Part shown: positions 25,559-35,442 of the stretch, in pieces
Numbering within the stretch: the stretch's first letter is position 1
Layout of the letters: every line of letters starts with the position of its first letter
Assembly: GCF_028596025.1 (NCBI RefSeq)
Contig: NZ_CP117167.1
Span: 3,596,001-3,660,000, forward strand
Origin: Mucilaginibacter jinjuensis
Lineage (GTDB): Bacteria > Bacteroidota > Bacteroidia > Sphingobacteriales > Sphingobacteriaceae
Direction of reading: 5' to 3'
DNA length: 64,000 bases
Translations under genes and position numbers: made by a program
Notes under the pieces: model-generated
Seen by the model: the letters and a program-made list of their open reading frames with translations, nothing else
Database searches by the model: none
What the model was told of the DNA's origin: nothing

Positions 25559-25972
25559 ATGGCATTAAATTTAATTCGCGAATCTGTAGGCAGTGCCCAG
25601 GCAAAAACCGGTTTAACCCAATACCAAACTATTGTTACCAGGAACAAGCATGCGCTTGTGATTGATGAGCCTGAATCATCGAAAGGTACAGATACAGGCA
25701 TTGACCCGGTTGGTTTATTAATGAGTAGCCTGGCCAGTTGTACCTCTATTACCTTGCGCATGTATATCGACCGTAAGATGTGGATAGTGGACGAGATTAC
25801 CGTGAATGTAGAAATGTTTAAGATAAACGGTGGGACTGTATTTGAACGAACCCTGCATTTTAAAGGCGAACTAAACGACGACCAAAAGAAACGCCTTGAA
25901 CAAATTGCTGATGCCTGCCCTATCCATAAAATATTAGTGGGCGATATTATGGTTAAAACCCAGATTGTATAA
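25559..25972 (+). CDS. OsmC family protein (second copy)
   Basis: 137 residues from ATG 25559; a TTG two codons earlier is less likely. The OsmC cysteines are present: SSLASCTSITLRMYID (first Cys near residue 62) and ADACPIHKI (second near 122), so peroxidase chemistry is possible. It differs from the 14217 copy in the motif DPVGLLMSSLASCTS, closer to the classical OsmC/YhfA bacterial group. It ends just before the terminator of the minus-strand candidate sRNA, leaving no terminator of its own on the plus strand. Confidence 0.85.
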   Translation: MALNLIRESVGSAQAKTGLTQYQTIVTRNKHALVIDEPESSKGTDTGIDPVGLLMSSLASCTSITLRMYIDRKMWIVDEITVNVEMFKINGGTVFERTLHFKGELNDDQKKRLEQIADACPIHKILVGDIMVKTQIV

Positions 25973-25975
25973 ATG

Positions 25976-26012
25976 AAAAAAAGCAGACCAGAAATAAATC
26001 CGGCCTGCTTCA
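25976..26012 (-). terminator. Strand-specific terminator for the candidate sRNA
   Basis: 9-bp stem with one G-U pair on the minus strand, long loop, then UUUUUUU (complement of the A-run 25976-25982). On plus there is no T-run after the stem. Confidence 0.7.
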
Positions 26013-26099
26013 ATCACTCTAAAACAATCACCTCTAACTATAGAAGTCTCTTTATATATACAATACTTATGTATTGACCTATTTGCTTATTTAATATAC
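25976..26099 (-). ncRNA. Candidate small RNA, about 120 nt
   Basis: No coding frame is visible. On the minus strand a TATCTTTG promoter element (26109-26102) is followed by ~120 nt and ends in a hairpin with seven U. Predicted hairpins in order: CAATAC-ATAA-GTATTG (26076-26061), CTTCTA-TAGT-TTAGAGG (about 26046-26030, with one G-U), and the terminator AAGCAGGCC...GGTCTGCTT (26010-25981). The terminator pairs better on the minus strand: the one non-Watson-Crick position is G-U there but A-C on the plus strand, and only the minus strand has the T-tract. No minus-strand gene starts upstream, so the terminator needs its own transcript. Confidence 0.55.
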
Positions 26100-26101
26100 T
26101 A

Positions 26102-26131
26102 CAAAGATACGGACTATTAACGTGTAACACG
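26102..26131 (-). promoter_or_regulatory. Candidate sRNA promoter with overlapping palindrome
   Basis: TATCTTTG (26109-26102, minus) is a full match to the -7 consensus. The palindrome cgtgtaacacg (26121-26131) falls between the -7 and the expected -33 region, where a regulator could act. The -33 match itself is weak. Confidence 0.5.
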
Positions 26132-26308: not shown

Positions 26309-27451
26309 ATGAGTTTACCGAACAAATTACCTCCTGAACTGCTCGAAATTTCTGAAAGAATGCCATCCATTGTTTGGAATGCATTGGTGGCCGGCATAGC
26401 TATATTTATAGGTTTAATAGCCAAGGCTATCATTACACGTATATTAAAATATTATGAGAAGAAAGCCGATTATAAGATTTATTCCTTCTTCCGCTCCTTC
26501 ATCATACACTTGGGTGTACCCTTCACTTATTTTATCCCACTTTTTTTATTAAATATATCATTGCCGCTGATGCGGATGGATAAGTTGTATTATGACCCGC
26601 TCGACAGGCTGATTGATATTCTTCTCACGCTCGCTTTTGCCAACATATTAATAAGCTGTATACGTGTAGGTGAAGATTATATTTATCACCTGTATGACCT
26701 TAACAAAGCCGATAATTTAAAAGAACGGAAAATACGCACACAATTATCCTTTATCCGGAAGCTTGTTGTGGCTATTATCATCTTTGTAACCATCGCCATT
26801 ATTTTACTCAGCTTTGAGAGTATGCGTAAAATTGGCACAGGCTTACTTACCGGTGTTGGTGTTGGCGGTATTATAGTAGGTTTTGCTGCACAAACCTCGT
26901 TAGGGAACTTGTTAGCAGGTTTTCAGATTGCTTTTACCCAGCCTATCCGTATTGATGATGTACTGGTTGTAGAAGGCGAATGGGGGCGTGTGGAGGATAT
27001 TACACTTACCTACGTGGTGTTAAGAATTTGGGATCAGCGCAGGCTGATTTTACCGATCAATTATTTTATAACGAAGCCATTTCAAAACTGGACGCGGATT
27101 TCTGCAGATATTTTGGGTACGGTGTTCATCTACATGGATTATTCAATTCCAATTGAACCCTTGCGTAAAGAGTTTGATGATTTGCTTACTAAAACCAAAT
27201 TGTGGGACGGTAAAGTAAAAGTGTTACAGATTACGGATGCCAAGGAGAAAACCATTGAAATCCGTTTGTTGATGAGCTCAGGTAATTCATCAGACGCGTT
27301 TGACCTGCGTTGTTTTATCCGTGAAAATATGATCACGTACATACAAAAGAATTACCCGGAAAGCCTTCCAAAATTGCGTGCCGAATTTATTGGTACTCCG
27401 TTCCAAACACCACCCTCAGCAGAGCTGGGTAACGCAGTTAAGCAGCCGTAA
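26309..27451 (+). CDS. Small-conductance mechanosensitive channel, MscS family
   Basis: 380-residue inner-membrane channel that releases solutes on osmotic downshift. Four to five hydrophobic helices: ~25-45, 70-90, 105-125, 148-170, and the pore helix with GIGVGGIIVGFAAQTSLGNLLAGFQI-like small-residue packing near 180-215. The downstream IDDVLVVEGEWGRVEDITLTYVVLRIWDQRRLILPINYF is the MscS beta domain, followed by the vestibule alpha/beta domain. Longer at the N-terminus than E. coli MscS (286 residues), like the plant/Bacteroidota forms. Its 3' end overlaps the convergent DUF4126 gene by 14 bp. Confidence 0.92.
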   Translation: MSLPNKLPPELLEISERMPSIVWNALVAGIAIFIGLIAKAIITRILKYYEKKADYKIYSFFRSFIIHLGVPFTYFIPLFLLNISLPLMRMDKLYYDPLDRLIDILLTLAFANILISCIRVGEDYIYHLYDLNKADNLKERKIRTQLSFIRKLVVAIIIFVTIAIILLSFESMRKIGTGLLTGVGVGGIIVGFAAQTSLGNLLAGFQIAFTQPIRIDDVLVVEGEWGRVEDITLTYVVLRIWDQRRLILPINYFITKPFQNWTRISADILGTVFIYMDYSIPIEPLRKEFDDLLTKTKLWDGKVKVLQITDAKEKTIEIRLLMSSGNSSDAFDLRCFIRENMITYIQKNYPESLPKLRAEFIGTPFQTPPSAELGNAVKQP

Positions 27452-27923
27452 CTAAAGTTGCCCCGCTGGCTGCTACCAAAGCGTCTTCTATCATGCCGAT
27501 AACCGGATCTAAGATAGTGGTACGCTTCACTGTATTTTTACGGATAAAGAAGCTTACAAAAGTTGATGCAGCCGCAGTTGTACCGCCTATTAAAGCGCCG
27601 GTCATTGCATTATTTCCCGATGCCTTGTAGATACTTGCCCCGGCCAATGCACCCGATAAGAATCGCCCGGTTAGGCCTATTGGATTAATTCTGTTTGGGG
27701 CTGATGGTAATTTATCACCTAAAAATTCGCCCACTGCTAATACTTTTAAAACCATGGCCACTTTCTCTGATTGCATGAGGTTAAGAGGCCCTCCTTCTAA
27801 CTTATTAGAATGGTGATGACTTAGTATATGACTGGTTATTGCCGGTGCTGACATGGCACGCATGCCTGCCAATGTACCTAAACCTATAGTTTGCCAAAAT
27901 GGGTCTGTTAGTTTTAATGCCAT
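27438..27923 (-). CDS. DUF4126 family membrane protein
   Basis: 161 residues with four or so short hydrophobic segments rich in Gly/Ala (LGTLAGMRAMSAPAI, SGALAGASIYKASG, ALIGGTTAAASTF, DALVAASGATLV). The N-terminal IGLGTLAGMRAMSAPA is characteristic of DUF4126, a family of unknown role. Convergent overlap with mscS of 14 bp, and divergent from the membrane protein at 28086. Confidence 0.8.
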   Translation of the reverse strand: MALKLTDPFWQTIGLGTLAGMRAMSAPAITSHILSHHHSNKLEGGPLNLMQSEKVAMVLKVLAVGEFLGDKLPSAPNRINPIGLTGRFLSGALAGASIYKASGNNAMTGALIGGTTAAASTFVSFFIRKNTVKRTTILDPVIGMIEDALVAASGATLVTAA

Positions 27924-28878: not shown

Positions 28879-31800
28879 TTAAACCGCCGGAGTCAGCTCC
28901 TTCTCCTCAACAACCGTTTTCTTTTTAAAGAAACGATCTTTAAGACGGATTCGGATGATGTACATACACGGCACCAGTATCAGGGTAATAATAGTTGCAA
29001 AACCCAAACCGAAGATCATAGTCCACGATAATGGCCCCCAGAAGGCAACGTTATCACCACCGAAATAGATATGCGGTTTAAAGTCGGTAAACAAACCAAC
29101 GAAATCGATATTGAAACCAACGGCCAATGGTATTAAGCCCATAATGGCAGCGCTGGCTGTTAACAATACCGGCGTCATACGGGTACGTGCAGCTTCAACC
29201 ACGGCATCGTGCACGTTGTGGGTTTCTTCCATCAGCATATCGGTAAACTCAACCAGTAAGATACCGTTACGTACTACCACACCCGCAAGGGCAATGATAC
29301 CTACACCGGTCATTACGATAGAGAACGTCATGTGGAAGGTACTTAAGCCAAGTAACACACCAATAATACTGAAGAAGATCTCACTGAGGATGATAAACGT
29401 TTTACCAACCGAGTTAAACTGCGCCATCAGAATGATGAGGATCAATCCGAATGAGATCATTAACGCTGTACCCAGGAAGGTTGCCGTTTCTATCTGGTCT
29501 TCCTGCGCACCACCCATTTTATAAGTTACCCCATCGGGGAACCTGAAGGTACGCAGTGCGCTTGTTATAGCTGCGTTAACTTCTGTAGGATTATAAGGCT
29601 TGATAACGCTCGATCCCAGAGTTAAAACACGTCTCGATTGCTTGTGCTTGATATTAGCATACGTATTGGTATAACGAATATCTGTAAAAGCCGAGATAGG
29701 TACCTGGCGGATTGCACCACCACTGGCTAAATCGCGATAGGTCATTTTCATATTACGCAACAGATCGATATTATAACGCTGATCTTCCTGTGCGCGCACG
29801 TTTATTTCATAGTTATCTTCTTTAGTATTTCTAAAATCAGAAGCCTTCCAGCCATATACAGAAGTAAGCAAAGATTGAGTTATCTGGGCCGTTGTAATAC
29901 CCTCGCGGTTAGCACGTTCACGGTTAATATCAAACACAATCTCGGGTTTAACATTCTCTACATCGGGTACTAAACCTTCAATACCTGCAATTTTTTGCTG
30001 ATCGATGTACTTTTTCATACGTTCGGCAGTTTTAACCAATGTATCAAGGTTATCGCCGGTTATTTCAAGGCTGATATCCTTTTGTACCGGTGGGCCAGAG
30101 TTTTCCTGCGCTACTGAAATTTTAGCACCGGGAACACCTTGAACTGTCTGGCGAATCCTGTTCAATATTGCTTTAGTATCTTTTCCATTCCGCTTCGCAA
30201 ATTCAACGAAGGCAACTGTGATTTTTCCTTTGTTATAGTAAGTGCCCTGATCTTCATCTGTTGGGTCTGTTACCCCTACCGAAACGTTAGAGATGATAGA
30301 TGATACCACGTCTTTATCCGGCTCAACAACCTGTGCAACACGTTTCTCCAATTTAGCTACCACATCGTTGGTATAATTCTGATCGGTACCAATTGGCATC
30401 GTCACATATACATAAGCAAAGTTAGGGTCGCCCGATGGGAACTGCTCTACCTTAAGGTTACTTACAACTGTAAAGGCAATACTTACGAAGAACAGCACAA
30501 TAACGCCTCCCAATATCCACCATGGGCTTTGAACTGCTTTTTCCAATATGCGGGCATACCAGTTTTGGAAACGCGGCCAGAGATTTTTTTGGAATTTATC
30601 GATCACCCGTAACAGCACAAAGTGATTTAACAAGTATAATAGAATGGCAAATACAACGAAGTTACCTACCCCTCTGTTCATCAGATAGCCTAAAACAGCA
30701 GCACCACCCATAAACATCAATACACGTAATACCTTCTTATCGAATTTTGGATTATCATGCTCGCCTTCATGGTGAGGTTTCATAAAATCAACCGCGAAAA
30801 CCGGGTTCATAATATAGGCTACCAATAACGACGCTAATAAGGTAATGATCAGCGTAATTGGCAGGAAGAACATGAAGTGACCGATTAAGCTGTTCCAGAA
30901 TGCCAAAGGCACAAACGGTGCGAGCGTAGTCATGGTACCAGAGAATACGGGTAAGAATACTTCACCTGCAGCCATTTTAGCGGCTTGTTTAATTGGTACA
31001 GCTCCATTATTAAATATCCGATGCGTGTTTTCAATTACCACAATGGCATCATCCACCACAATACCCAGCGCCAGCAGGAAGGAGAACAACACAATCATAT
31101 TGAGAGTAAACCCAATTGCCGGCATTACAAGGAAAGCGATAAAGCATGATAGCGGTACCGACAAGGCCACGAAAATAGCATTGGTGCTACCCATAAAAAA
31201 CATCAGGATAACGGTAACCAATATAAAACCAATGATGATCGTATTGATCAAATCGTTCAGGGTAGAACGTGTTTTGTCAGACTGGTCGCCGGTAATGGTA
31301 ATATCTAATCCTTTAGGGAAAACTGTTTTTTGTTTTACTTTAATCAGGTCATAGATCTTATCTGAAGCCTCGATCAGGTTTTCACCCGATCTTTTACTAA
31401 CGTTAAGTGTAATTACATTTTTAAAATTAGGGTTGTTAGGCGTTTTTAAACGTGCAAAACTCTCCTGATCCTGAAACCCATCTACAACCTGGGCAATATC
31501 GCGCAGATATACTGCCTTGCCTTGCGGGTTACGGATAATTAAGGCGTTAACCTCGTCTGCACTTTTAAAGTCCTGTTTAATATCTATAGCTCGCTGTACA
31601 CCATCATTTACGAGTGCACCCGCCGATGAAATCACGTTTTCATTACCCACAGCCTGGATGATATCATTATAACTGATTTGAGCAGCCGTCATCTTATTCA
31701 AATCTACGTTGATCTGGATGTTAGGCTTTAAGGCACCAACTTCCTCAACTTTAGATATTTCTTTCATGCCCTCAATATCATCCTTGATATTATCTGCATA

Positions 31801-32292
31801 TTCCTTCAATTTTTTCAGGTCGTAGTTACCAGAAATATTGATGTATAGAATAGGCAAATCGGCTACGTTGATGTCGGAGATAACAGATTCTTTCAGATTG
31901 TTATCATTCTGTGGTAAATCCTGTTTGGCTTTATCAACCGCATCTTTCACATCCTGTTTAGCATCCTTGATTTTAATATCAGCGTTAAATTCAGCCGTTA
32001 TTATTGATACGTTTTGCTGGGTATTTGAAGTAACCTTTTTTAAGCCCTTTAACGACTTTAGTTGCTTCTCCAATTGTTTGGTTACCAGTGTCTCAATATT
32101 TTGAGGAGACTGGCCCGCATACGCAGTAGTGATATACACTTTCGACTGAGCAATATCCGGGAAGTTCTCTTTTGGTAACCTGTTATAACTCAACAGCCCG
32201 AGTAACGTAATGAGGAATATCATTACATAAACTGCTGTTTTGTTATCTATGGCCCAACTCGAGGGGCCAAATTCTTTGTCTAAATCTTTCAT
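28879..32292 (-). CDS. RND efflux transporter permease (AcrB/HAE1-like)
   Basis: 1137-residue inner-membrane pump using the proton gradient. After a cytoplasmic start, TM1 is VYVMIFLITLLGLLSY; FPDIAQSKVYITTAYAGQSPQNIE is the conserved start of the first periplasmic domain. The TM4 proton-relay motif GIVVDDAIVVIEN (two Asp) is near 405-420. The second half repeats the pattern with a periplasmic domain from ~625 and TM helices to the end (GFATIITLILVPCMYII). Extra hydrophobic stretch near 535-570 compared with AcrB. It follows its adaptor by 19 bp. The substrate may be drugs, solvents or metabolites; not deducible. Confidence 0.93.
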   Translation of the reverse strand: MKDLDKEFGPSSWAIDNKTAVYVMIFLITLLGLLSYNRLPKENFPDIAQSKVYITTAYAGQSPQNIETLVTKQLEKQLKSLKGLKKVTSNTQQNVSIITAEFNADIKIKDAKQDVKDAVDKAKQDLPQNDNNLKESVISDINVADLPILYINISGNYDLKKLKEYADNIKDDIEGMKEISKVEEVGALKPNIQINVDLNKMTAAQISYNDIIQAVGNENVISSAGALVNDGVQRAIDIKQDFKSADEVNALIIRNPQGKAVYLRDIAQVVDGFQDQESFARLKTPNNPNFKNVITLNVSKRSGENLIEASDKIYDLIKVKQKTVFPKGLDITITGDQSDKTRSTLNDLINTIIIGFILVTVILMFFMGSTNAIFVALSVPLSCFIAFLVMPAIGFTLNMIVLFSFLLALGIVVDDAIVVIENTHRIFNNGAVPIKQAAKMAAGEVFLPVFSGTMTTLAPFVPLAFWNSLIGHFMFFLPITLIITLLASLLVAYIMNPVFAVDFMKPHHEGEHDNPKFDKKVLRVLMFMGGAAVLGYLMNRGVGNFVVFAILLYLLNHFVLLRVIDKFQKNLWPRFQNWYARILEKAVQSPWWILGGVIVLFFVSIAFTVVSNLKVEQFPSGDPNFAYVYVTMPIGTDQNYTNDVVAKLEKRVAQVVEPDKDVVSSIISNVSVGVTDPTDEDQGTYYNKGKITVAFVEFAKRNGKDTKAILNRIRQTVQGVPGAKISVAQENSGPPVQKDISLEITGDNLDTLVKTAERMKKYIDQQKIAGIEGLVPDVENVKPEIVFDINRERANREGITTAQITQSLLTSVYGWKASDFRNTKEDNYEINVRAQEDQRYNIDLLRNMKMTYRDLASGGAIRQVPISAFTDIRYTNTYANIKHKQSRRVLTLGSSVIKPYNPTEVNAAITSALRTFRFPDGVTYKMGGAQEDQIETATFLGTALMISFGLILIILMAQFNSVGKTFIILSEIFFSIIGVLLGLSTFHMTFSIVMTGVGIIALAGVVVRNGILLVEFTDMLMEETHNVHDAVVEAARTRMTPVLLTASAAIMGLIPLAVGFNIDFVGLFTDFKPHIYFGGDNVAFWGPLSWTMIFGLGFATIITLILVPCMYIIRIRLKDRFFKKKTVVEEKELTPAV

Positions 32293-32311
32293 TTCAAATT
32301 AGTTTAAAAGA

Positions 32312-33418
32312 TTAATTAGCTGATGAAGCTTTAACTTTATCACCATCTTCAATATCATTTGCACCATCAGTTACCAGTTTATCACCTGCTGAGATGCCTG
32401 ATAATATTTCGGCACTGCCACCGTAAACTCTGCCTACCTTAACCGTTTTTTGTTTAGCGATACCATTGTCATCAACAAAAACATAATCGCCCTGCTCCGA
32501 TTTTTGAATTGCTTTAAAAGGAACAACTAATGCAGTTTTGCTATTATAATCGGCAATTTTTAAGGTAGCTGTCATGTTAGGGCGCAATGTTTTGCGGCTT
32601 GGTAATTTTACCTCCACAGCAAAACTGCGCGATCCCGGATCAATTACTTTAGCAGCAAATGTTACCACAGCATCCAGTGAATCGGCAGCATCAGGAACCA
32701 ATATTTTAACATGGTCGCCCTGGTTTACGCGGCCAGAATAAGACTCTGGTACATCGGCCTTAACCTTTAATACATCGGCATTTACAATACGGATGCCATT
32801 TTGGCCCGGCTGAGCAACCTGACCCAATTTCAAATCCATTTGGTCAACAGTACCATTAATTGGCGATTTGATGCTATACATTACAGCCTGTTGCTGTAAC
32901 GAAGCCAGTTGTTTTTGGCTGCCTTCTAAAGCAGTTTTTGCTTGCAGGAATTGTACCTCTGTACCAATTTTTTGATCCCAAAGGTTCTTTTGGCGCTGGT
33001 ATAAAGTTTTGTTTAAATCAACCTGGGTTGCAACCTGGGCAATGTTTTGTTTCAACACGTTATCATCCAATTGAACCAGTGTCTGGCCTTTGCTTACGTG
33101 GTCGCCCACCTTTACATAAATAGATGTAATTGTACCCGGCGATTGCGGATAAGCAGTTACGTTATCCTGCGCATCAATACGGCCCTGTATTTGTATGTAG
33201 TTAGTAAAATTGCCTTGCTTTACTTCAACCACGTTAACATCAGTAACTTTTGCCGAATCCTGTGCTCCGCCTTTAGTTTCAAGCGCTGCAATTTTTCCTG
33301 CAATTTCAGATTGTTGTTTTTTCAGGTCTGCCAGTTCGGCTTTAGGGTCTTTTGGCTTGTTGTTGCAGGCCGCCAAAGCCATTAAAGCAACTGTACTGGT
33401 GTATAATATTTTTTTCAT
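32312..33418 (-). CDS. RND periplasmic adaptor (membrane fusion lipoprotein)
   Basis: 368 residues. Signal peptide with lipobox LAAC gives lipidated Cys18. An N-terminal coiled-coil segment (AELADLKKQQSEIAGKIAALETKGG) is followed by the lipoyl half-motif GTITSIYVKVGDHVSKGQTLVQLD, an alpha-hairpin (residues ~110-165), the second lipoyl half (YSIKSPINGTVDQMDLKLGQVAQPG), then beta-barrel and membrane-proximal domains. It links the permease to the TolC-type channel. Thirty-one bp after tolC, 19 bp before the permease. Confidence 0.92.
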   Translation of the reverse strand: MKKILYTSTVALMALAACNNKPKDPKAELADLKKQQSEIAGKIAALETKGGAQDSAKVTDVNVVEVKQGNFTNYIQIQGRIDAQDNVTAYPQSPGTITSIYVKVGDHVSKGQTLVQLDDNVLKQNIAQVATQVDLNKTLYQRQKNLWDQKIGTEVQFLQAKTALEGSQKQLASLQQQAVMYSIKSPINGTVDQMDLKLGQVAQPGQNGIRIVNADVLKVKADVPESYSGRVNQGDHVKILVPDAADSLDAVVTFAAKVIDPGSRSFAVEVKLPSRKTLRPNMTATLKIADYNSKTALVVPFKAIQKSEQGDYVFVDDNGIAKQKTVKVGRVYGGSAEILSGISAGDKLVTDGANDIEDGDKVKASSAN

Positions 33419-33449
33419 GTATGTTTTGTCTATGATTGATTAGCTGTGA

Positions 33450-34802
33450 TTATTGAATGCGTCCGTATGCTCTGTCAAGATCTACTTTGCTGATTAAGGC
33501 ATTGTATAAACCTTGTATATAACTGTTATCTGCCGTTACTAATGATGTTTCGGCCTGGGTTACCTCAATGCTTGAGCCCACTCCCTGCTGGTATTTAATC
33601 CTTGAAACCCTTAATACCTCTTCTGCAACCTCACGGTTATGCTTTTGGTTGTTTAAAGTTTGCAAGCCGTTGATGTAGCCAATACGAGCAGCACTGGTTT
33701 GCAGGTTTAAAGCATTCTTCAGGTTGTCCATATCGTTCTGTGTTTTTTGAACAGAAATTTTGGCCTGCTTAACCTGGTTAGTACGTTGGAAACCATTGAA
33801 AATTGGAACTTTCAGATTAATGCCAATATAGCTCGACGGAAACTGTGAGTTATATAAAGTATTAAAGCTGTTATTCTGATAAGACGAAGTATAGTTTGCA
33901 ACAGCAGACAGCGTTGGCAGGAACTGTGATTTCTGTCTTTGAAGATCGAGTTTGTTTAATTTCAATTGTGTTTCATATAAACTATACTCTACCCGTTTAT
34001 GGTAAGCTGCTGTATCTGTAGCGGCAAGTATAGTTTCAGTTTCTTCAAGCTTAACATCCTCTAACTTATCTTTAAGCGTTAACTGGGTTTCAATAGGCAT
34101 ACCCATTTGAAACTTAAGCATCTGGATATTAAGTACCAATAACCTAAGCGTGTTGGCGCGTGTAGTAACCAAATCATTTAGTTGTACGCTTACACGGTCA
34201 ACATCAATCTTTTCAACAAAGCCTTGTTTATTCTGGGCAGCAGTTTGGTCGTACTGCTCTTTAATCTGTTTAATATTGGCATCAAGTAACTTAATGCTTT
34301 CGCCGCTAACTAATACCTGGTAGTAAGCTTTAGTAACCTGCACATTGGCTTCTATTAAACTACGTGTAACATTACGCTGCGAAAGCTCTTTGTAGGTTTT
34401 TGAAGCCTTTAAGCCAACGAGGTAACTGCCATCGAACAAGATCTGGCTTGCATCCAAACCTAAATTAGACTGGTATTTTACACCAAATTTAAGGGGGATA
34501 TAAGTACCCGGCTGCCCTATAAACTCACCCGGTATTAAGGTGGTTGGTATTTTTACATAATCTAAAAATGAGGCCGAACCATTAATTTGAGGCAAACCGA
34601 TGCCTGTTGTTTCTTTTACTTTGTATTCGGCGCTCTTAACATCCAGGCGTGCATTTACTATGGTATCCTGGTGTAAGTATGCATATTGAATACAATCCGC
34701 CAGTGTAAAATCATAGGACGGACTAACCGCAGGCGTTTGCTGTGCATAACTGTTTAAGGTAGCCATGCATAACACCAATCCCGCTTTAATTACATTCTTC
34801 AT
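33450..34802 (-). CDS. TolC-family outer membrane efflux protein
   Basis: 450 residues with a signal peptide (GLVLCMATLNSYAQ). Two outer-membrane efflux protein repeats (roughly 30-230 and 260-445) with long amphipathic helices (SGESIKLLDANIKQIKEQYDQTA, QVKQAKISVQKTQNDMDNLK) and a C-terminal YQQGVGSSIEVTQAETSLVTADNSYIQG, a common TolC motif. It forms the trimeric outer-membrane tunnel of the adjacent pump. Confidence 0.92.
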   Translation of the reverse strand: MKNVIKAGLVLCMATLNSYAQQTPAVSPSYDFTLADCIQYAYLHQDTIVNARLDVKSAEYKVKETTGIGLPQINGSASFLDYVKIPTTLIPGEFIGQPGTYIPLKFGVKYQSNLGLDASQILFDGSYLVGLKASKTYKELSQRNVTRSLIEANVQVTKAYYQVLVSGESIKLLDANIKQIKEQYDQTAAQNKQGFVEKIDVDRVSVQLNDLVTTRANTLRLLVLNIQMLKFQMGMPIETQLTLKDKLEDVKLEETETILAATDTAAYHKRVEYSLYETQLKLNKLDLQRQKSQFLPTLSAVANYTSSYQNNSFNTLYNSQFPSSYIGINLKVPIFNGFQRTNQVKQAKISVQKTQNDMDNLKNALNLQTSAARIGYINGLQTLNNQKHNREVAEEVLRVSRIKYQQGVGSSIEVTQAETSLVTADNSYIQGLYNALISKVDLDRAYGRIQ

Positions 34803-34830
34803 TTGTTGCGTTTATATATTGAGTGGTTGA

Positions 34831-35442
34831 TTATTCCTGATTTATATTTTGGTATTCGTTAAGCAATTTGTAGCCTTTTAGTGTACAGATGCCGTAGTTA
34901 AAATGCTCAAAAAACTGTTGCTGTACCGTCCACACATTAAATTCATTAAAAGGGAAAATGGCATTATTAAAGCCTGTTTCTATTTGTGCAACCCGCATCA
35001 ATGCCATTATTTTGGCATCAATTTCGGGGCGGATGTAACCTTGCTCCTTGCCCTTATTTAACAGATCAACAAGCGTATCTACCATGATCTCTGCCTTAAA
35101 AGCCTGAAACTCTTTCCACGCATCCGAATGATATTTCTGCATATCGTGCATTACAATCGGGTTCATGCGGGCAATCAGATCTTCCGAACACTTCATCATG
35201 TTCAGCATCTTTTCAATCACATTGCCAGACTGCGCCATAATATCATTTATATCTTTCTTATCGTGTTCCAGTCGCTCTTTAACCAATTCTACCACCAGTT
35301 CATTTTTGTCAGAGAAATGCTGATAGATGGTTTTTTTCGACATCCCTAAGTGCTTCGCAATATCATCCATGGTCACGCTCTTTATGCCGGCCTGCATAAA
35401 AAGCTCAAACGCTCCTTCTAATATCCTCTGTGTCTGACTCAT
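34831..35442 (-). CDS. TetR/AcrR family repressor of the efflux operon
   Basis: 203 residues. The N-terminal helix-turn-helix (ILEGAFELFMQAGIKSVTMDDIAKHLGMSKKTIYQHFSDKNELV) is the TetR signature; the C-terminal helical part would bind the inducer. It is the first gene of tetR-tolC-adaptor-permease, 28 bp before tolC. Its own promoter carries palindromes expected for the repressor, so it probably controls itself and the pump. No end-product can be guessed. Confidence 0.92.
   Translation of the reverse strand: MSQTQRILEGAFELFMQAGIKSVTMDDIAKHLGMSKKTIYQHFSDKNELVVELVKERLEHDKKDINDIMAQSGNVIEKMLNMMKCSEDLIARMNPIVMHDMQKYHSDAWKEFQAFKAEIMVDTLVDLLNKGKEQGYIRPEIDAKIMALMRVAQIETGFNNAIFPFNEFNVWTVQQQFFEHFNYGICTLKGYKLLNEYQNINQE

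Follow-up and report, generated by a model that had tools for sequence, protein, structure and literature searches.

A predicted small RNA gene between osmC and mscS

The element studied here lies on the minus strand of the window (the whole stretch of 64,000 nucleotides of Mucilaginibacter jinjuensis DNA that was analysed) between osmC (PF02566) and mscS (PF00924), both of which are encoded on the plus strand. On one side the terminator of the element abuts the osmC stop codon (25970–25972), and on the other side, upstream of the element, lies mscS (26309–27451). There is no minus-strand gene between mscS and the element. The nearest upstream gene of that strand, which encodes a DUF4126 protein (27438–27923), lies past mscS, in agreement with the initial annotation of this locus, according to which no minus-strand gene upstream could use the terminator. 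The other components of that annotation, namely a minus-strand promoter box, an element of about 120 nt with three hairpins, and a terminator with a U7 tract, are likewise all present in the sequence (Table 1).

Table 1. Parts of the predicted sRNA gene, with positions in the window
Feature	Position	Strand	Basis or remark
Upstream extension TAGT (genus consensus TWAT; 3/4 letters in the window)	26113–26116	−	7 to 4 bases before the −7 box
−7 box TATCTTTG (Bacteroidetes consensus TAnnTTTG)	26102–26109	−	Sequence
Predicted transcript, about 122 nt	25976–26097	−	5′ end estimated about 5 nt past the −7 box
Hairpin 1, CAATAC/GTATTG, sequence-variable 5′ hairpin	26061–26076	−	Folding of the 5′ region
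Hairpin 2, ACUUCU/AGAGGU	26030–26047	−	Paired in 96% of cells, 61 sequences
Near-invariant core AGAGGTGATTGTTTTAGAGTGATT, 24 nt, two AGAG(G)TGATT copies	26012–26035	−	Exact in nearly all carriers
Intrinsic terminator, hairpin 3 and U7	25976–26010	−	Covariation, folding

The 125 nt of the minus strand fold with an energy of −34 kcal/mol, as compared with −21.1 ± 3.0 kcal/mol for dinucleotide shuffles (z = −4.28), and none of the 200 shuffles folded equally well. The order of the parts (promoter, hairpin 1, hairpin 2, core, terminator) is invariant among homologous loci, and the predicted length of the RNA has a median of 118 nt and ranges from 99 to 131 nt (78 loci). With its own promoter, its own terminator and no conserved open reading frame, the element has, as judged by sequence, the features of the sRNA class. 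We are highly confident that the minus strand at 25976–26109 is a genuine sRNA gene with the predicted transcript given in Table 1.

The terminator stem (AAGCAGGCCGG/CTGGTCTGCTT) pairs positions 26010–26000 with 25991–25981, the U7 tract occupies 25982–25976, and a U run follows the hairpin on the minus strand only. Thus, the strand specificity that had been ascribed to the terminator stands, but not the accompanying statement that it contains only one G–U pair, as the 11-bp stem has two (A–C on the plus strand). The compensatory changes which it had been proposed to look for in the hairpin at 25981–26010 were found: double changes occur at 8 of 10 pairs of the terminator. For the whole structure the covariation score was 0.336 versus 0.147 in shuffles, and double-changed cells numbered 75 versus 15.8 (0/500 shuffles reached 75). 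Sliding the partner column abolished this signal. In 81 loci the mean z of the terminator region was about −4.8.

Two alternatives to a dedicated non-coding RNA bear on these data. The element could be a DNA signal or a terminator of read-through transcription from upstream genes, and in species in which a TetR gene precedes it the TetR transcript could indeed run through it. However, the element is unchanged in the window, where it has mscS of the opposite strand upstream; moreover, a promoter box is conserved ahead of the core and the covariation of the terminator is of the RNA type, which makes this explanation highly improbable. Even less credible is a short mRNA that encodes a tiny protein. 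The core has one open frame, but indels on either side of it shift the frame, and even the best frame has an in-frame start in just 22 of 88 loci; nor does the core have wobble-position changes. No conserved open reading frame was found among the homologues, and the longest closed one has a median of 13 codons.

The window gave no matches to Rfam 15 at family gathering thresholds, and with respect to that release the earlier remark that the RNA matches no named one stands. Only weak, terminator-driven matches appeared at permissive thresholds, the best of them being L20_leader (23.6 of 58.7 bits), aligned mainly on the terminator.

Distribution and conservation of the predicted sRNA

The sRNA is present in at least 108 of 149 Mucilaginibacter genomes, i.e. 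in nearly three quarters of those sampled: 107 were identified by blastn with the 171-nt interval (E ≤ 1.5e-4), and one (G137) was added by a covariance model. About 40 genomes of the genus are without a detectable copy, some of them incomplete, which indicates that the sRNA is dispensable in the genus. A search of 399 genomes of the family for the core with up to three mismatches identified 74 carriers, all of them Mucilaginibacter, with 0 of 294 genomes outside the genus; the reversed-pattern control gave none among the matches listed. When one genome per species (84,980 species) was scanned for the exact pattern ACTTC-N(4-12)-AGRGGTGATTGTTTTAGARTGATT, 71 stretches were obtained, which were labelled as Mucilaginibacter, as one Sphingobacteriaceae MAG, or as unnamed Bacteroidetes MAGs, and as nothing else. 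The gene is single-copy: the window genome has one full copy, and each carrier genome has one copy with the exact core. Further model matches were rejected. The second one in the same genome (3997408, 40 bits) lacks the core, as does a weak match within the genus (L182); of the weak matches from the class and from genera other than this one (E 1e-5 to 1e-2), the one from outside the genus that was read (L187) is also without it.

Conservation of the hairpins and the promoter in relatives had been named beforehand as what a dedicated RNA should display, and it was observed: more than 100 species retain the promoter, the hairpins, the core and the terminator together, and the compensatory changes in the terminator likewise speak for a dedicated minus-strand small-RNA gene. 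The parts differ in how they are conserved, with a near-invariant core, a covarying terminator and a drifting 5′ region. The latter nevertheless tends to fold (mean z −1.83, SE 0.17; z < −1 in 64% of 81 loci), with certain loci lacking the hairpin. Hairpin 2 is nearly invariant, so covariation says little about it. Three quarters of the 24 nt of the core are predicted to be unpaired, including its 3′ part.

Variant cores, such as AGAGGTGGTTG-TTTAGAGTGATTG, were found in genomes G063, G075, G098 and G074. By inspection, the variants L181, L183 and L184 combine a change of ACTTC to ACTAC with a change of GAT to GGT in the core, and these changes re-form hairpin 2 as a longer stem in another register. 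Together with L186, these three re-registered variants possibly represent a sub-family with other targets.

The neighbourhood of the gene is broadly kept, with an RND pump, DUF4126 and similar genes on one side and OsmC-like, 136-aa and PorP/SprF proteins on the other. A co-oriented gene directly 3′ of the terminator, a feature of leaders and attenuators, is absent in the window and in most loci, where the gene past the terminator is convergent, indicating that the sRNA is not a leader. The convergent arrangement, and the contact of the terminator with the osmC stop codon, would suit an action in cis, in which the sRNA is antisense to the osmC 3′ UTR and affects the end of that mRNA. We consider this very unlikely, since the downstream gene varies from species to species (OsmC-like, the 136-aa protein, a 412-aa membrane protein and others) and the core is invariant, and since the core does not overlap any coding sequence.

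Promoter, TetR gene and dyad

The TAnnTTTG box precedes the core in 81 of 88 distinct homologous loci, as compared with about 4% expected from shuffling, and is located 95 to 55 nt ahead of it, mostly 60–85 nt. The strict TWAT extension accompanies 63% of the sRNA promoters, as against 5.7% of the remaining intergenic TAnnTTTG sites of a relative's genome (G006). A clear −33 TTG was not found in the homologous sRNA promoters. As a feature that is rare elsewhere, the TWAT extension might be the sign of an activator or of a special sigma factor.

The initial annotation had pointed to a palindrome in the promoter as a sign of regulation. The plus-strand palindrome CGTGTAACACG, which has an imperfect centre, does exist in the window (26121–26131), but the closest relative (L009) has only a broken version of it and L010 and L011 have none, and we rejected it as an operator.

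A co-oriented TetR-family gene (PF00440) is present upstream in 46 of 71 named loci, with its stop codon usually 60–90 nt ahead of the −7 box. In 25 of these 71 loci, a dyad, TTGACY-N13-RGTCA, extends over the −7 box and the start site at a fixed offset, beginning five bases into the box (about 55–80 nt before the core); it is 24 bp long in 24 cases and 23 bp long in one. The chance expectation is 0.0003 per locus, and 549 kb examined contained two other matches. The dyad occurs in 22 of the 46 TetR-linked loci versus none of the 18 with a visible upstream region and no TetR gene, whereas the three further carriers are on contigs too short to show the upstream gene. This association is significant (Fisher p = 1e-4), although the test ignores shared ancestry, which inflates the statistic, and 24 TetR-linked loci are without the dyad. 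As its outer arms are partly untranscribed and its middle is often asymmetrical, the dyad resembles a protein-binding site on DNA more than a hairpin in RNA. The dyad is thus a probable operator for the TetR protein, and in part of the genus the sRNA is probably controlled by this regulator.

An orthologue of this TetR gene was not found in the window genome, where the best match has 28% identity and mscS occupies its place. The sRNA is intact there all the same, which argues for an independent gene. The window also contains an apparently complete efflux operon on the minus strand (28879–35442), with genes for a TetR-like regulator, a TolC-like outer-membrane protein, a membrane fusion protein and an RND pump, as named from reading the translations.

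Proposed mode of action and comparison with known sRNAs

As a whole, the data make it reasonably probable that the element encodes a trans-acting, base-pairing sRNA, although its transcription, trans action and base-pairing are inferred, as are the binding of TetR and the signal. A housekeeping-type promoter (TAnnTTTG with the upstream TWAT) would start an RNA of about 120 nt, which would end at the Rho-independent terminator. Most probably, its single-stranded core GAUUGUUUUAGAGUGAUU would act in trans by base-pairing around the translation start of at least one mRNA, thereby altering the translation or stability of its targets, as has been reported of GibS, FopS and Rfp18 in other Bacteroidetes. 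In part of the genus, the upstream-encoded TetR regulator would repress the sRNA by binding the 24-bp dyad, which would tie it to the signal sensed by the regulator beside the RND efflux locus. For the Bacteroidetes of soil and plants, few sRNAs have been described, and to our knowledge the phylum is without an obvious Hfq or ProQ; its RNA chaperones and the rules that its sRNAs follow are for the most part still to be worked out. The linkage to TetR and the dyad on the sRNA's own promoter make up a directly testable regulatory circuit.

Complementarity to the core at 2,244 gene starts of G006 (2.64 Mb) was not in significant excess over that of permuted cores (ratio 1.18 versus 0.97 ± 0.13 at −14 kcal/mol), so that base-pairing is without positive support of its own. 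Two leads in this genome were rejected. A mild enrichment of CAATCAC-type 7-mers at gene starts overlapped dispersed AATCTCTAATCACC-type repeats, and no significant excess was left once the repeats were removed, while the 599-aa gene that has a double-site match upstream is without an orthologue in the window genome and patchy in the genus. The dispersed AATCTCTAATCACC or AATCAC-type repeats themselves (e.g. 205480–205539, 783958–784043 and 1373011–1373091 of G006:C1) often form facing pairs, are sometimes located directly before start codons, and resemble a small mobile element or a REP-like one. A role of the core as a Shine–Dalgarno mimic was also discarded: it does not match the 16S rRNA 3′ end over a longer stretch, as only GAGGT, inside hairpin 2, is shared. 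The 16S-like 3′ end of the window genome reads CTGGAATACCTCCTTT at three places, and the canonical form is absent.

A core that barely changes in more than 100 species, with its surroundings drifting, must have a firm partner. Against base-pairing, the invariance of all 24 nt, paired part included, exceeds what a simple seed needs. Instead of an mRNA, that partner could be an RNA-binding protein (e.g. an RbpB-type RRM-1 protein) bound by the two AGAG(G)UGAUU repeats, so that the RNA would be a decoy or scaffold which titrates or loads the protein rather than pairing with mRNAs. Against this, known decoy RNAs (CsrB, for instance) have many sites, whereas this RNA has only two motifs, and hairpin 2 half buries one of the repeats. 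Such a function would nevertheless fit the presence of two similar motifs in a core that is conserved almost perfectly and the lack of significant target enrichment, and also the finding that an RRM-1 protein in Bacteroides binds sRNAs with a preference for single-stranded regions (PMC11697453). We regard a protein decoy or scaffold as the main rival, though an unlikely one, and find its more specific form more doubtful still, namely a genus-specific CsrB-like decoy acting through the tandem AGAG(G)UGAUU, with a promoter switched by the adjacent TetR sensor of the efflux locus.

Base-pairing in trans is the reading that we prefer, and in the literature searched we found no paper on an sRNA of Mucilaginibacter. 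The predicted sRNA appears to be previously undescribed, and is best filed as a new family of intergenic trans-acting base-pairing sRNAs. It resembles GibS of Bacteroides thetaiotaomicron (about 145 nt; PMC7366714), which is likewise an intergenic sRNA of the Bacteroidetes: each has a promoter of its own and an intrinsic terminator, and each combines a conserved, seed-like stretch with two small hairpins. In contrast to GibS, whose conserved stretch is the single-stranded 5′ end, the Mucilaginibacter RNA has its invariant part in the 3′ half, before the terminator; it is also restricted to Mucilaginibacter, the sequences having been compared through the Rfam search only. The conserved single-stranded 5′ seed that is common to GibS and FopS is thus absent, the 5′ portion being the variable part here. 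FopS, a paralogous sRNA cluster with RbpB in Bacteroides, for which base-pairing near start codons was shown (PMC11697453), likewise has a conserved core followed by a terminator and a promoter of the sigma-ABfr type. However, FopS sRNAs are multicopy (14 in B. thetaiotaomicron) and 65–70 nt long, with a 5′ seed (PMC11697453), whereas the Mucilaginibacter sRNA is single-copy and about 120 nt long and carries the core in the 3′ half of the molecule. Rfp18 of Flavobacterium psychrophilum differs in having predicted and partly tested targets, which are metalloproteases (PMC9723704), but is similar, as likened by description, in being a genus-conserved, structured and independent Bacteroidetes sRNA with promoters of the TAnnTTTG type.
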